From Bdellovibrio svalbardensis (GTDB lineage: Bacteria; Bdellovibrionota; Bdellovibrionia; Bdellovibrionales; Bdellovibrionaceae), in assembly GCF_029531655.1 (NCBI RefSeq), contig NZ_JANRMI010000007.1, positions 1-64,000 on the forward strand: a stretch of 64,000 nt of DNA, written 5' to 3'. Each line of letters begins with the position of its first letter. The first letter of the stretch is position 1. The position numbers and the translations under genes are program-made. Positions 17,241-23,065 of this stretch are shown here, piece after piece. Under the pieces are notes generated by a model. It had not been told where the DNA came from, made no database searches, and saw only the letters and a list, made by a program, of their open reading frames with translations.

Positions 17241-17255
17241 CACCCCGCTAGTTCT
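17233..17255. terminator. Bidirectional hairpin over two convergent stops
   Basis: AGAACTAGC (17233-17241) pairs with GCTAGTTCT (17247-17255). The stem covers the stop codons of both converging genes. No U-run follows, so strength is uncertain. Confidence 0.5.
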
Positions 17256-17547
17256 ACTTCCAAAGTTTCCCCATCAACATCAGATAAAACATCTTAAAGT
17301 CCCCGCGCAAACTCCATAGAGGATGTTTAAAGGTCGCTGGACGATTTCTCTCAACGATAAAGTGCCCCACCCAAGCAAAGCCATACCCCACGATAGGCAG
17401 CGCCCAGGCGAACGCCCATTGCTTGGTCACAAGCAAACTGATGAAAATGATGTGCACCAACAAGGTTCCGACAAAATGCAAACGGCGATTGGTGAGGTTG
17501 GAGTGTTCTGACAAATAAAAAGGCCAAAACTCTTTAAATGTTTTCAT
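17254..17547 (-). CDS. DUF962/Mpo1-like membrane protein
   Basis: The 97-residue protein begins MKTFKEFWPFYLSEHSN and contains NRRLHFVGTLL, GYGFAWVGHFIVERNRPATF and PLWSLRGDFKMF, the DUF962 (Mpo1-like) signature with its conserved His residues. Yeast Mpo1 is an Fe-dependent alpha-oxidising dioxygenase of 2-hydroxy fatty acids; bacterial roles are unproven. Two hydrophobic helices lie in the middle. It is 13 bases downstream of plsC and belongs to that operon. ATG 17547 is preferred because the longer frame upstream runs through plsC in another frame. Confidence 0.85.
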   Translation of the reverse strand: MKTFKEFWPFYLSEHSNLTNRRLHFVGTLLVHIIFISLLVTKQWAFAWALPIVGYGFAWVGHFIVERNRPATFKHPLWSLRGDFKMFYLMLMGKLWK

Positions 17548-17560
17548 AGTCACTCCGTAA

Positions 17561-18298
17561 TTAGAAATCATCTCCATGGAAATATGGCGCCATGATCTGA
17601 CGAACTTTCTCCTGAAGCAAAGGTCTTTGATCAATAGTGTAAGGAGTCGTATCCACAGCCGGCAAAACTTCCAAGGTGATTGTGCGCTTCCAGACACCCC
17701 AATTCGGAATATAATGACCCTTTGGTAAAATTGCGGCGGCCCCTTTGACAATCACGGGAACAATGGGCGCTTTGGCATTGATCGCAAAAACAAACGGACC
17801 GGATTTAAATGGCCCCAGGCTTTCAACTTCTTGGCGCGTTCCTTCGGGAGCGAGGGCAAAACGTTCACCGGCTTTGATGCGCGCTTCAGCAGCTTGATAA
17901 ACCTTGAATACTTCCTCGCGGCGACTGCGCGCAATGGGAAGAATGCCCGCTCTTCTCATTCCTGCACCAAACACAGGAATTTTAAAAAGTTCGATTTTGG
18001 CTCCGAAACGAAAGCTTCCCAGCCAGCCATTCATGGCGAAAATATCAAAGAAGCTTGTGTGATTAAAGACATACAAGAAACCACCCTCCGGGCGATTTTC
18101 CAAACCCTTTACAACAACATTCACACCAAACAGTCGGCAGGAATTGCGAGTCCAAAACTCCACGATATGATCTTCGATTTTGCGATTGTTAAAAAGGATA
18201 TTAACAATGACCAAAGAGCCCGCACTGGCCGCAGTCAAAAAGATAAAGATAATAACACCAATCAAAGATCGAGGATAAGAAAGCAATTTTAAAAACAT
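17561..18298 (-). CDS. plsC: 1-acyl-sn-glycerol-3-phosphate acyltransferase
   Basis: PlsC acylates lysophosphatidic acid to phosphatidic acid at the membrane. The 245-residue protein starts with a hydrophobic helix. It has NHTSFFD (HX4D catalytic motif), APEGTRQ (EGTR substrate motif) and a VPVIVKGA block typical of the family. It starts 2 bases after the stop of the upstream gene (18301), so the two are translationally coupled; a DUF962 gene follows. Confidence 0.92.
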   Translation of the reverse strand: MFLKLLSYPRSLIGVIIFIFLTAASAGSLVIVNILFNNRKIEDHIVEFWTRNSCRLFGVNVVVKGLENRPEGGFLYVFNHTSFFDIFAMNGWLGSFRFGAKIELFKIPVFGAGMRRAGILPIARSRREEVFKVYQAAEARIKAGERFALAPEGTRQEVESLGPFKSGPFVFAINAKAPIVPVIVKGAAAILPKGHYIPNWGVWKRTITLEVLPAVDTTPYTIDQRPLLQEKVRQIMAPYFHGDDF

Positions 18299-18300
18299 GA

Positions 18301-19398
18301 TTAACTCAATTCAGGAAATAAACGTTTGCGCGCCGCAATTCTTTGTCTTTCCTTGTAAGCTTGATGCTCTGAGGGGCCAGACAAAATACGCTGATGCGCC
18401 GATTGATCCATAATCTGAACTTCAAAAGGATAGAAGAAACTAAATGCCTCTTTGCTGCCTTGAGGTTTGATATGAATCAACTTACGGGAAATAAATTTAA
18501 TAAAACGATAGTCTTCGCCAGAGAAAAAATTCTCCTTGCGCAGGAATTTTACCCCATCACCCATCTCTGCCAATTTCTGATCAAAAGCATCTTGAATGCT
18601 CTTCTCATCCAAAGTATCCAAACGATGGGAAAGATCATCGCAGACCTGCATGAAAACTTCGACTGGATAGAGGTTGTTCGAGCTTTGATCCGGCATGATG
18701 TGCGGAAAGCTGATAACATTCTGCTTGATCAAAAAACGTACGACTTGGAAAGTATCAAACAGATTGCGCGTGATAAAACGCACACCCAGTTTATCAAAGA
18801 TCTTCATTGCCAAAGCGTCGGGCTTGGCCAAAAGCTTTATCACCGTGCTGGATGAAGTCTTAAATGGCTTCACTTCGAATCCAAGCAGCTCAATGGAATC
18901 CAGCTCTCCTGCAGGATCTTTCAAAACGGTTCTATGGGTGTTTCCATCATGCAGAATGCAGTCTTGAAACGGAGTCAAAATCTGCGACTGGATCTCTTCT
19001 GAAAATGAACTGAATAAATCATTTTCCGCATGCACAAAAACGTGCATACAACGAATGATCGCACAGGCCCAGCGCTGCATTTGAACTTGATCTGAATCTT
19101 GAGTGCTTGCGTAAATTAAAAGATTGCGAATATCCCCAAGCTGCTTGAGGTCTCTGAAAATATCAGGGATCTCAGCCTCATTGAATCCAAGCTTTTCAAT
19201 CATCAAAACCAAAGCACGACGGTGGTAATAGCTTAGTTTTTCGACGTCACTTTTTTCATTGATATCAAAACCGTAGGAAAGAAGAAAAGCGCTGGCTGCG
19301 TCCAAAGTATGAATATTCAGCTTAGGAATATCGATGGCCGAATGACCACCTACGACTGAACTCAGAATAGAAGAATCGAATATGAAACGCTGAGGCAT
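18301..19398 (-). CDS. Unknown protein with RelA/SpoT-like core
   Basis: The 365-residue protein resembles the TIGR04552 type of hypothetical proteins from deltaproteobacteria-like predators; this name is from memory. Residues 180-224 read K-TSSSTVIKLL...IFDKLGVRFITRN..DTFQVVRFL. This follows the RelA/SpoT synthetase pattern (K..S..xK...D..GvR....D.y.v...L) with D202. PFEVQIMD at 325-331 matches the E-x-Q-I motif with catalytic-type E327. The synthetase YxSxH segment is not clearly present. It leads an operon with plsC and the DUF962 gene. An alarmone synthetase-like or inactive nucleotidyltransferase fold is inferred; the biochemical role is unknown. Confidence 0.65.
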   Translation of the reverse strand: MPQRFIFDSSILSSVVGGHSAIDIPKLNIHTLDAASAFLLSYGFDINEKSDVEKLSYYHRRALVLMIEKLGFNEAEIPDIFRDLKQLGDIRNLLIYASTQDSDQVQMQRWACAIIRCMHVFVHAENDLFSSFSEEIQSQILTPFQDCILHDGNTHRTVLKDPAGELDSIELLGFEVKPFKTSSSTVIKLLAKPDALAMKIFDKLGVRFITRNLFDTFQVVRFLIKQNVISFPHIMPDQSSNNLYPVEVFMQVCDDLSHRLDTLDEKSIQDAFDQKLAEMGDGVKFLRKENFFSGEDYRFIKFISRKLIHIKPQGSKEAFSFFYPFEVQIMDQSAHQRILSGPSEHQAYKERQRIAARKRLFPELS

Positions 19399-19444: not shown

Positions 19445-20074
19445 TTACTTGATTAGAACCGCAGTAGGGATCGTAAATGTGCCTAAAGTTCCGCCAACTG
19501 GAGAGTATCCAGCAACAGCGACGTTATTTTGGAAATAAACTGAACCCGTTGCATTTGCACCATTCACTTGGCCGCTGATAACAAAGCTTCCATATGAGTC
19601 CGCGAATGTCACCTGGAATGAACCCGTATTGCGATTGTACATTCCACTCACCGCATTGGCGAATTGGATTTCATAAGCCTGGATTGTTTTGCCTTGGTAA
19701 ACCTGACCCACCAAAGCATCGACAATTTGAATCAAGATGGATGATCCTGAGCTGACAACGTTACCGCTGCTATCAAACTTCAACGAAGCACTGAAATTCT
19801 TTTTGCAAATTCCTTGGAAGCTTTCCGGGCTGATCGTCGCAGAAACCAAAGCCAAGATTGCCTCATTAGTGGCTTGCAAAGTTCCGGTACCAGTTTGACC
19901 GTTACTGCAAGTTGCAGTGTTCTCTGGAGTTACTGAGCCACCACCAGAAGTGACTGCGCCACCACGACCCGCGACTCGAACTGTTGAGTCGTCCTTCTTC
20001 GCACATGCAGTCATTCCAAGGGAACCCGCAAGTAGCGCGCCTAGGATCATTTTAGAAAGGATTGATTGTTTCAT
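19445..20074 (-). CDS. Lipoprotein of unknown function
   Basis: The 209-residue protein has a lipoprotein signal (KQSILSKMILGALLAGS, lipobox LGMTAC, lipidated Cys expected near residue 24). A Gly/Ser-rich linker (GGAVTSGGGSV) follows, then a beta-rich domain with the phrase GSFQVTFADSYGSFVISG. A very good ribosome binding site (GGAGG) fixes ATG 20074. No family recognised. Envelope location is well supported. Confidence 0.75.
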   Translation of the reverse strand: MKQSILSKMILGALLAGSLGMTACAKKDDSTVRVAGRGGAVTSGGGSVTPENTATCSNGQTGTGTLQATNEAILALVSATISPESFQGICKKNFSASLKFDSSGNVVSSGSSILIQIVDALVGQVYQGKTIQAYEIQFANAVSGMYNRNTGSFQVTFADSYGSFVISGQVNGANATGSVYFQNNVAVAGYSPVGGTLGTFTIPTAVLIK

Positions 20075-20231
20075 GGTAGCCTCCTGCCAAAGTACTAAGG
20101 CAAGGCTTGGACCACGGGAAACCCAGTATATTGGAGATGGCACTGGAAAAGTGTTTCACCCTGAGACAAAGCGGCCTCAGGTGCCGCTTTCAGTACGCGA
20201 CTGTCTAAATTCTTCGCAAAAGGTGCTCGCC

Positions 20232-20277: not shown

Positions 20278-22959
20278 CTACTTCACTTGATCGAAGGCAG
20301 CAAGAACAGTGAGTTCTGAAGTCAGCCAGTAGCTGCCTTTAGCATCGATCAAACCTTTCGCCAACAAATCAGCTGGCAGGGTTTTTCTTTGCTCTGCTGG
20401 AAGCAAACTTAGATCTGCAACGCCCGCCTGCTTCAAGAAGTCATTCACAACAGCCGTCAATGAGGCTTTCACATTGGCTTTATTCAACTCCTGACCAAAG
20501 TTCAAACCTTGAGTCGAAAGAAGCTTTAATGAAGCCAGTCTTTCCTCTATCGTCAAGAAGCGCACCGGTAAGGTGACTGGAGTTTTTGCCTCGCCAACAA
20601 CCGCCGTCAAAGTTTGACCGGCATTTTCAAGAAGCAAATCCAAAGACAACTGAGTCAAAGTCGCCGCTTCCTCGCTATTCACAAGTCCGTATGGCAAGAC
20701 TGCTGTTACTTTAGTTTTCGAACCATCCTGCATTTCCACAACTTCGTTGTTCTTAGGCAGAAGAGCCTGTACTCCGGCGTAGACTACTTTCTCGTTCGCT
20801 TTAACCAAAGACTGGAAGAATGAGATCACCTTCGCGCGTTGTTCCGTGGTTAGAACATACTCACGACCTGAAAGGGTTTTCCCTTTATCCAAGTAACCAC
20901 TTGCGATCAACGCATCGACTTGACGCTGAATCCACGTCGTATCAATAGTGCCATCGGTATTTCTTAGAAGGCCATTCAAGAGAGCTGCATATCCACCAGC
21001 AGCTTCCAGATCTTTATCACGTTGCTCTTTGAGGGCTGCATCCTGGCCATAACGAGAGTAAAGAACTTTACCTGCCTTGACATAGTCAAGTGACGCAAAC
21101 GTGGCCGCTGGATTGCCATCTTTAGAATAGTCGAACAAAACCTGACTCACAAAACCCAACGGAGTCATGTCCGCTTTTGCCCATTTCACCGTGTCTTTCA
21201 GAACAGATTCCAAGTTATTTACCACATCAGGTCGATCCCCTGGATACATGCGACCGATAATAGATGCGAACAGAACATTGACGAGATTCTCTTTCTCATC
21301 TTTTGCATCCAGGTATTTTCTGAGCATTGGATTATTGCCGGCATCAAAACGTTCACAACCGTAAACGCTCAACCCCTGACTGTTGCCCAAGGCGATATCA
21401 TCATCTGTGCAGTATTTTGAAACCGCTTCGCTCAAAGCACTGTTATCACCAGAGTAAGCCCAGTCCATCGCCATCTTATCGTAAGACAAAGCTGAATATT
21501 TAGTGCGCGCTGAAGACAGGATGTTATCGATACCGCTTACATAGTCCATAATGGACGTCGTCGTCTCAAGACCTGGATGCTCTTTGTCTTTCAAGTAAGT
21601 CTTAGCGGCTTCTTTAATCTGCTCTACAGAAACCTTGGAAGAGAAAGAACCCGCAAAATTATGGCGAAGACCGAAAGCATGTCCCAGCTCATGAGCCACC
21701 GTTGCACGAACGCTATCTTGAGCCAAACGAAGTCTTTGGGAGTCTGTGGCTTCACGAGCCAATTTATTGAGGTCCTTAAAAGTTTGTGAGAAATCACAAG
21801 CCACGGCTCCATTGACCACCACCGGAGCTTTGTCATTCAGATCAACGAGATCGGCGGAACCCACCTTCGTAAATACGGAGGGCATAAACACTTGCGCACG
21901 AAGAATCTCTCCCGTTAACGGATCCGATTGGCTGATCGCATAAGCTGCTCCTGCATCCAACCAGTCAATCCAACGAATCATGATGCTACGATCTTCAGGG
22001 TTGGCATCTTTGATCTGCACACCCGGCTCAACTTTAACAATCTCACGTCCAAAGACATGGTTCCAGTAAAGAGCGCCTTCAGTCACTGCCTGAACATAGT
22101 CTGCGGGAACGGAGGCCGAGATTCTGATTCTCACTGGTCCCTTGGAAGGGCTGAGATCCCATTTGGAAATAAGATTGGAGATCTCTTTGCTGTAGCCCTT
22201 CTTTGCGATCTTCGTCACAAAGAAACCCACGCGGCGAGAGGCATCGTATTCTTTGGGCTTGAATTCAGGATCCAGATTGTAGGAACGAATTTGCACGTTC
22301 ATCAACAAGGTTTCCTCACGCGTATCAACGCCCAATTTTGATTTATCAGAACCGGCCTTAATAACGGTGCTTGGAACTTTGGAGATCTGCTCGAGCTCAA
22401 TATTTTTATCGTCGAATTTAATATTACGAATAAAGGAGTCTGACACTGGGATTGTGCTGTAAGAGCTCTCCGTGAGATCGTTATTCATTCCGCGCACTGC
22501 ATCGACATCATAGGAATTTTGCGCGATAAAACTTTTAAAGCCATCGCCCAAGTCAAAAGTGATAGACGTTTCATCTTCGCTGAGAATCGCAAAGCTTTGT
22601 ATCAAATTGACCGTTTGAATCTCTTCGTAAATGCTGTTGTAGTTTTGCCCCAACAAACCAATCTTGGATCCGGATTTTTCAAAACTCACAACTTGAGGTT
22701 TTAGATCGTACCATTGCGGTGTCGATCCTCCGGTCTTCCCGGAAGCGATCAACAAAAAGATTTTACCTAAGGAAGATTTACTGATGGTAATGCAAGAAGC
22801 CTGGGTGCAATCCTGTGCTTTGGCTTTCGTGAAGTTCATGCTCATCTGAGCCGGCGCTTGCTTAGCTTCGACGATTTTAGTTTTTTCCTGCGTGCATCCT
22901 GTGAAAATCAATGCTGTAGACAAGGCGCTCAATACAAGGACGTGCTTATTTAATGCCAC
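20278..22959 (-). CDS. Zinc metalloprotease lipoprotein
   Basis: This is an 893-residue exported protease. The start is GTG 22959, supported by GGAGGG just upstream. The signal segment LVLSALSTALIF leads to lipobox FTGC (lipidated Cys about residue 22). HELGHAFGLRH at about 423-433 is an extended HExxHxxGxxH zinc site, and TSIMDY at about 468-473 fits a metzincin-type Met-turn. It resembles large bacterial zinc-dependent metalloproteases of the DUF5117-related kind; family naming is tentative. The long N-terminal region and C-terminal helices are of unknown role. Prey-protein digestion or envelope processing is plausible. Confidence 0.82.
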   Translation of the reverse strand: MALNKHVLVLSALSTALIFTGCTQEKTKIVEAKQAPAQMSMNFTKAKAQDCTQASCITISKSSLGKIFLLIASGKTGGSTPQWYDLKPQVVSFEKSGSKIGLLGQNYNSIYEEIQTVNLIQSFAILSEDETSITFDLGDGFKSFIAQNSYDVDAVRGMNNDLTESSYSTIPVSDSFIRNIKFDDKNIELEQISKVPSTVIKAGSDKSKLGVDTREETLLMNVQIRSYNLDPEFKPKEYDASRRVGFFVTKIAKKGYSKEISNLISKWDLSPSKGPVRIRISASVPADYVQAVTEGALYWNHVFGREIVKVEPGVQIKDANPEDRSIMIRWIDWLDAGAAYAISQSDPLTGEILRAQVFMPSVFTKVGSADLVDLNDKAPVVVNGAVACDFSQTFKDLNKLAREATDSQRLRLAQDSVRATVAHELGHAFGLRHNFAGSFSSKVSVEQIKEAAKTYLKDKEHPGLETTTSIMDYVSGIDNILSSARTKYSALSYDKMAMDWAYSGDNSALSEAVSKYCTDDDIALGNSQGLSVYGCERFDAGNNPMLRKYLDAKDEKENLVNVLFASIIGRMYPGDRPDVVNNLESVLKDTVKWAKADMTPLGFVSQVLFDYSKDGNPAATFASLDYVKAGKVLYSRYGQDAALKEQRDKDLEAAGGYAALLNGLLRNTDGTIDTTWIQRQVDALIASGYLDKGKTLSGREYVLTTEQRAKVISFFQSLVKANEKVVYAGVQALLPKNNEVVEMQDGSKTKVTAVLPYGLVNSEEAATLTQLSLDLLLENAGQTLTAVVGEAKTPVTLPVRFLTIEERLASLKLLSTQGLNFGQELNKANVKASLTAVVNDFLKQAGVADLSLLPAEQRKTLPADLLAKGLIDAKGSYWLTSELTVLAAFDQVK

Positions 22960-23065
22960 GATAGTCCCTCCACTTTTCAAGTGACATTTATGCCAAAGAT
23001 TGTCCAAGATCTAAAGGGCCCTGAAAATAAGTTAAATTACTATAAAGAAACTCGACAGGAGAAGC

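Follow-up and report, generated by a model that had tools for sequence, protein, structure and literature searches.

The systems closest to the gene analysed here are the small alarmone synthetases RelP/SAS2 and RelQ/SAS1, the long RSH proteins (Rel, RelA and SpoT) and the toxSAS toxins. Toxins of the FaRel2 and CapRel type have the synthetase (SYNTH) fold without an HD domain, tRNA-CCA-modifying toxSAS enzymes pyrophosphorylate an RNA end, and some RSH-type domains are regulatory. As set out in PMC5794853, the phosphate ligands of SaRelP are Lys80, Ser84, Lys88 and Arg91, Arg78 and Arg112 stack on the adenine, Asp107 and Glu174 bind Mg, and Tyr151 lies in the G-loop. The main text of an RSH survey does not name Bdellovibrio (PMC3153485).

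We analysed a gene in the window, a 64,000-nucleotide stretch of Bdellovibrio svalbardensis DNA, whose product matches the NCBIfam family TIGR04552 at full length (residues 5-361; 394.5 bits against a cut-off of 125) and TIGR04562 nearly as well (393.6 bits against a cut-off of 140). The plus-strand frame across 18301-19398 is full of stops. A preliminary description of this DNA, made from its letters, had left the minus strand of the gene unmentioned and had called the gene unknown, which is right with respect to its function but overlooks its family; both NCBIfam entries carry the label "TIGR04552 family protein" alone, without a function, and we propose one here. With a probability of roughly 0.6, we consider that the gene encodes a divergent RelA/SpoT synthetase-fold enzyme making (p)ppGpp, (p)ppApp or a related 3'-pyrophosphorylated nucleotide, in which case a second, so far unrecognised enzyme of the ppGpp-synthetase type is probably present in these bacteria. 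No functional assignment for the family was found in the open-access literature searched, in whose accessible text only PMC9888234 names it.

Like RelP/SAS2 and RelQ/SAS1, the predicted protein combines a nucleotidyltransferase fold with the K-S-K, D, R and E residues at the same local spacing and has no HD domain, whereas its 365 residues include an extra N-terminal helical domain and a much longer acceptor loop. With the long RSH proteins it shares the E-Q-G-H-Y-K series at identical spacing, the D-xx-(A/G)-V-R motif and the highest score in structural alignment (VIA Z 10.8), but it has no HD hydrolase, TGS or ACT domain, and a canonical Rel is encoded separately in the genome. Because the protein falls under the Pfam RelA_SpoT cut-off, has K or Q in place of the SLHT His, lacks equivalents of the SaRelP residues Arg78 and Arg91 and is without HD, TGS and ACT domains, we did not file it in a named RSH subfamily. 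The features of the locus are collected in Table 1.

Table 1. Features of the TIGR04552 locus, in window coordinates; residue numbers are those of the 365-aa protein, and functional labels are predictions.
Feature	Position	Strand	Basis or remark
TIGR04552 family gene, divergent RelA/SpoT-type synthetase-fold protein	18301..19398	minus	365 aa, ATG start
N-terminal helical domain, residues 1-146, family-specific	18961..19398	minus	alignment and separate model
RelA/SpoT-type synthetase (nucleotidyltransferase) domain, residues 121-352	18343..19038	minus	predicted fold, Foldseek, VIA
Putative ATP-phosphate motif K180-xxx-S184-xxx-K188	18835..18861	minus	spacing as Lys80/Ser84/Lys88 of SaRelP and as Rel
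D202-xx-G205-V-R207, metal Asp and adenine-stacking Arg by analogy	18778..18795	minus	each 63/63; Asp107/Arg112 in SaRelP
Expanded acceptor-side region, residues 208-289, between R207 and N290	18532..18777	minus	N241 invariant
N290...Y297-x(3)-K/Q301-F302-x-x-R305, likely G-loop/acceptor side	18484..18531	minus	family alignment
E326-V-Q328...G341...H345-x-x-Y348-K349, putative second metal ligand and C-terminal motif	18352..18423	minus	spacing = Rel
plsC-like acyltransferase	17561..18298	minus	PF01553 E 1.4e-25; AGP_acyltrn 89.9 bits, under cut-off 102.95; 2 nt past TIGR04552 stop
Mpo1-like (DUF962) gene, likely ATG at 17547	17254..17547, inside ORF 17254-17751	minus	PF06127 E 2.1e-39; domain from ORF residue 69
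Lipoprotein-like ORF	19445..20143	minus	ends 46 nt upstream of TIGR04552 start; no Pfam match
909-aa protein, Met-zincin (DUF4953) metalloprotease match	20278-23007	minus	domain match

The family was found in 260 of 290 genomes of the phylum, 256 of them above the cut-off, and in 139 of 162 genera, and it was absent from the 14 control genomes. A gene hitherto without a functional name is thus present in about nine of ten genomes of the phylum, including that of the predator Bdellovibrio. Genomes without it (20 listed of 30) are mostly small, at 1.2-2.7 Mb with one of 3.8 Mb. Outside the phylum, it occurs in three of five genomes of another small phylum (that of G290), the sole other phylum covered. 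The window genome (3.9 Mb, 99.9% complete) carries one copy, on contig C7, and the closest relatives by name are Bdellovibrio. Searches of plasmids and of viral contigs gave no match to the family, and PHROGs and PADLOC gave none for the gene.

Kinship with RelA/SpoT is visible in the sequence, though faintly in the window protein itself. Residues 180-227 of the window protein match Pfam RelA_SpoT (PF04607) below threshold (E 0.021; 15.6 bits against a gathering cut-off of 27). When 63 family members were scanned singly, the same Pfam family appeared at E<=1 in 47, with a best E of 7.9e-9, while the next commonest Pfam family appeared in four; in whole-genome scans, two family genes reached the Pfam cut-off for RelA_SpoT (G024 with 27.1 bits, and G115 with 36.7 bits for its two pieces). 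The alarmone-synthetase pattern that the preliminary description had read at residues 180-224 is therefore a real signal. These 63 sequences, namely the window protein and those of 62 of 86 loci, with 28-87% identity to the window protein, also form our family alignment. The profile comparison proposed in the preliminary description yielded, beside this sub-threshold Pfam match, a weak and local hhalign alignment of the family with Rel (probability 41-51%, 30 well-aligned columns); in global hhalign against Rel, the domains did not align sensibly. A single-protein sequence search against the PDB found no relative, and a profile search, in which YwaC (6fgk) came first at 0.068 over residues 170-220 with glutamate-cysteine ligase and AAR2 at similar E-values, was not accepted as proof. 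We additionally searched 1,216,537 six-frame codons from the window and the family loci with a spaced motif (K...S...K, D....R, E.Q, G, H, [YF]K) that was composed after the family had been seen and that misses four of the 63 members as well as Rel, whose loop is shorter. All 83 hits fell at TIGR04552 genes, one per source.

The predicted fold gave a clearer answer. An AlphaFold2 model built on the family alignment reached a pLDDT of 90.0 and a pTM of 0.83, and in a Foldseek search of the PDB with this model, rows 1-40 were all alarmone synthetases or RSH proteins, headed by RelP (6ewz, E 9.7e-5). All eight hits at E<=0.001 were small alarmone synthetases, and the first unrelated fold, TdT, appeared at row 41 with an E of 0.15. 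Since the N-terminal domain and the insert find no match, TM-scores were modest; normalised by query length, most RSH rows had 0.23-0.31. VIA-align gave Z 10.8 for Mtb Rel (136 aligned, rmsd 3.9, model residues 124-347), 10.4 for S. aureus Rel and 9.4 for B. subtilis SAS2, in comparison to 7.4 for the best non-RSH row, DNA polymerase mu. The nucleotidyltransferase core on which the preliminary description depended is present in the model, in RSH-type form by both aligners. By sequence and predicted fold, residues 121-352 form a nucleotidyltransferase domain closest to the (p)ppGpp synthetases.

The ATP and metal side of this domain is strongly conserved. K177, K180, K188, D202, G205, R207, N290, E326, Q328, G341 and Y348 are invariant in 63 of 63 members, and S184 is kept in 60. 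For comparison we took the Rel synthetase domains of 14 out of 31 loci of this phylum, and observed identical spacings in K-S-K (+4, +4), in D-R (+5) and in E-Q-G-H-Y-K (+2, +15, +19, +22, +23); this C-terminal series is also spaced exactly as in the Rel of the window genome. Judged by spacing, K180, S184, K188, R207, D202 and E326 are the counterparts of the SaRelP ligands, and Y297 is probably that of its G-loop Tyr. SaRelP Arg78 and Arg91 have no conserved counterpart, the corresponding positions being P178 (P in 40/63) and A/H191; the residue next to the Arg78 position, K177, is invariant. The preliminary description had named D202 and E327 as the catalytic pair. D202 stands and the second residue is E326, residues 325-331 reading FEVQIMD, and with this correction both members of the pair are conserved in 63/63. 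The RelA/SpoT-like core that it had claimed is thus borne out by the predicted fold and the invariant catalytic residues. As read from alignment and model, a phylum-wide, unnamed family of RelA/SpoT-fold enzymes is real, with its core ATP/Mg site intact and alarmone-synthetase-like on the ATP side.

By contrast, the acceptor side differs from that of Rel. The spacing from R207 to Y297 is 78-102 residues (median 90, 63 members) versus 39 in Rel (R90 to Y129), and that from Y297 to E326 is 27-68 versus 16. The acceptor loop is about twice the Rel length, or about 40-60 residues longer, and therefore the guanosine site cannot be assumed. Position 297 is Y in 47, F in 13 and H in 3 of 63 members, its equivalence to the G-loop Tyr coming from a reading of the motif and not from structure alignment. 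At position 301, the His of the Rel "YQSLH"/"SLHT" motif is replaced by K (32 of 63) or Q (31 of 63), and N241, F302 and R305 are invariant residues without a known counterpart. In sequence terms, the domain has an ATP/Mg half that largely resembles RSH proteins and a rebuilt acceptor half; we are therefore committed to pyrophosphate transfer from ATP, and not to GTP as the acceptor. The most likely chemistry, given sequence and model, is that ATP donates pyrophosphate and that a nucleotide or RNA accepts it on its 3'-OH. Together, the recognisable RelA/SpoT fold, the intact ATP/Mg site and the altered acceptor site pose a concrete biochemical question, namely which acceptor is used.

The same observations bear on an alternative in which fold and chemistry are retained but the acceptor is an RNA end, a non-purine or a lipid-linked molecule. 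The doubled R207-Y297 spacing and the loss of the Rel His beside an invariant ATP side speak for it, as do the extra invariant residues N241, F302 and R305, and the enlarged loop and the K/Q in place of the His would accommodate such an acceptor. However, the putative G-loop aromatic position is kept, and the gene is a near-universal, single-copy chromosomal gene without a PADLOC match, unlike the toxSAS toxins, whose fold without HD domain it shares; its presence in 260/290 genomes and its neighbours, plsC or other genes, also bear on that comparison, which was confined to the locus itself. We regard another acceptor as possible but on balance unlikely.

Under the reading that we prefer, ATP would be bound through K180, S184, K188 and R207, with Mg2+ held by D202 and E326. 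An acceptor nucleotide, stacked on Y297 within the enlarged loop, would then receive the beta,gamma-pyrophosphate on its 3'-OH, and the product would be (p)ppGpp, (p)ppApp or a related 3'-pyrophosphorylated nucleotide. As a sensor or regulator, the N-terminal helical domain, with H119, H123 and D127, may replace the HD and TGS/ACT parts that Rel has. In this domain Y42, G43 and H119 are invariant, H123 and W110 are each kept in 62/63 and D127 in 58/63. Modelled alone (pLDDT 83.4), it gave no Foldseek match at E<=0.001, and its best VIA match was RbcX (Z 5.2; 69 aligned, rmsd 3.1). Pfam detected no HD, TGS or ACT domain in the 365-aa protein, the sub-threshold RelA_SpoT match being its sole signal. 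The searches with the N-terminal model lend no support to an HD hydrolase domain, yet one may be present.

The window genome encodes one 738-aa Rel, which holds both the sole HD_4 match and the sole full RelA_SpoT match of the genome and would be the only hydrolase of its kind available to remove the product. A second RelA_SpoT-like place (C1:11312, 15.4 bits), in an ORF that we take to resemble a SpoVR-type protein, was dropped as chance. We counted as Rel any long ORF with a strong RelA_SpoT match, and one was present in 39 of 41 TIGR04552 carriers and in 18 of 20 non-carriers examined. Since Rel is present in carriers and non-carriers alike, the TIGR04552 gene is no substitute for it, and predator biology gains a candidate nucleotide-signalling enzyme beyond Rel.

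Only gene order suggests a role near phospholipid synthesis. The preliminary description had placed the gene at the start of an operon with plsC and the DUF962 gene. Both do lie downstream on the same strand, but the plsC order is kept in the gene's own clade only. In all 21 close loci (L001-L021), plsC is the next gene downstream; among 12 further loci of the same order or class, nine have it there too, either adjacent or one gene away. This makes 30/33 loci of the clade, compared with 0/52 other loci, for which mostly 1.5 kb flanks were searched. DUF962 lies beside the gene in two loci only, the window and one close relative (L018); a tblastn "mpo1" match in L001 was dropped, as it lies inside plsC in another frame. 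That the gene starts the operon is not established, given the lipoprotein-like ORF upstream and a 46-nt gap in which a scan found no terminator-like or promoter-like site. This ORF, which is possibly in the same transcript, is found upstream of the gene in 16 of 21 close loci by tblastn, with a poorly conserved sequence. In L069, L077 and L082, a nucleosidase-like ORF lies between the TIGR04552 gene and plsC, and that of L077 (734-1486, minus strand) scores as PNP_UDP_1.

A divergent pgpA (PF04608) adjoins the gene in 29 of the 30 f17-family loci (L024-L053) and in six of the remaining 21 outgroup loci, but in 0/33 loci of the window's clade. The f17 loci also carry, in 30 of 30, an alpha/beta-hydrolase-like gene downstream on the opposite strand. 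Elsewhere, nine loci (L057-L062, L066, L067 and L076) have an ORF of about 400 aa with a Rossmann-like start directly downstream on the same strand; the examples from L060 and L061 had no Pfam match. That the gene adjoins one phospholipid gene in its own clade and another one elsewhere makes a membrane link suggestive; however, each is an inherited gene order within its clade.

These arrangements can be taken further, to a product that is a dedicated membrane-lipid signal and an enzyme that works with PlsC in its own clade or is co-regulated with PgpA in others. The conserved plsC in close and same-order or same-class loci and the divergent pgpA elsewhere are what favours this. Against it, neither neighbour crosses into the other's clades in the flanks searched, the f17 loci are one family and hence not independent, and pgpA-recA neighbourhoods are a common gene order. 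Furthermore, the window genome has four acyltransferase-family genes, and while the plsC beside TIGR04552 is the best match, three lie elsewhere. We consider such a dedicated signal unlikely. A nucleotide-signal enzyme tied to membrane synthesis had been presented as new, whereas phospholipid synthesis in E. coli is under posttranslational control by ppGpp at moderate to high levels (PMC7439487), and a membrane link therefore has precedent. The most elaborate version would have the phylum's second alarmone-type enzyme make a product, a 3'-pyrophosphorylated nucleotide or RNA, that its rebuilt acceptor loop renders distinct from the (p)ppGpp of Rel and that either regulates the synthesis of phosphatidic acid and phosphatidylglycerol or is read by it, through PlsC in the Bdellovibrio clade and PgpA in others, so that membrane supply would be coupled to the growth phases of these bacteria; this version we hold to be quite unlikely.

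It is improbable, in our view, that the protein is catalytically inactive, or nearly so, and serves as an ATP- or (p)ppGpp-binding regulator of the neighbouring lipid genes or of others. In favour of such a regulator, some RSH-type domains are regulatory, several SYNTH residues are changed, and a cell can tolerate loss of the gene. PMC9888234 describes six lines of Bdellovibrio NC01 that were evolved with Pseudomonas. In line B, which had a single prey strain, the TIGR04552 gene DOE51_RS08710 lost one nucleotide, and this deletion rose to over 75%; as three more mutations were at high frequency in that line, it may have hitchhiked. The orthology of DOE51_RS08710 to the window gene rests on the NCBI family label, and the family gene is not essential at least in that evolved line, where its loss was tolerated. 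On the other hand, the metal ligands and the phosphate-binding lysines are kept in 63/63 members, down to 28% identity, and dead enzymes usually lose them.

That the match reflects chance, or a generic nucleotidyltransferase of the Pol beta-like superfamily without RSH kinship, is scarcely credible, for although DNA polymerases mu and lambda and TdT share the nucleotidyltransferase fold at a Z of about 7, RSH proteins stand clearly above them in both Foldseek and VIA, and the C-terminal E-Q-G-H-YK spacing is that of Rel. Some relatives have additional RelA_SpoT genes (G226:C1:616569, G182:C60:14393 and G071:C9:6883), which lie in ORFs 337-351 aa long and are distinct from both Rel and TIGR04552.
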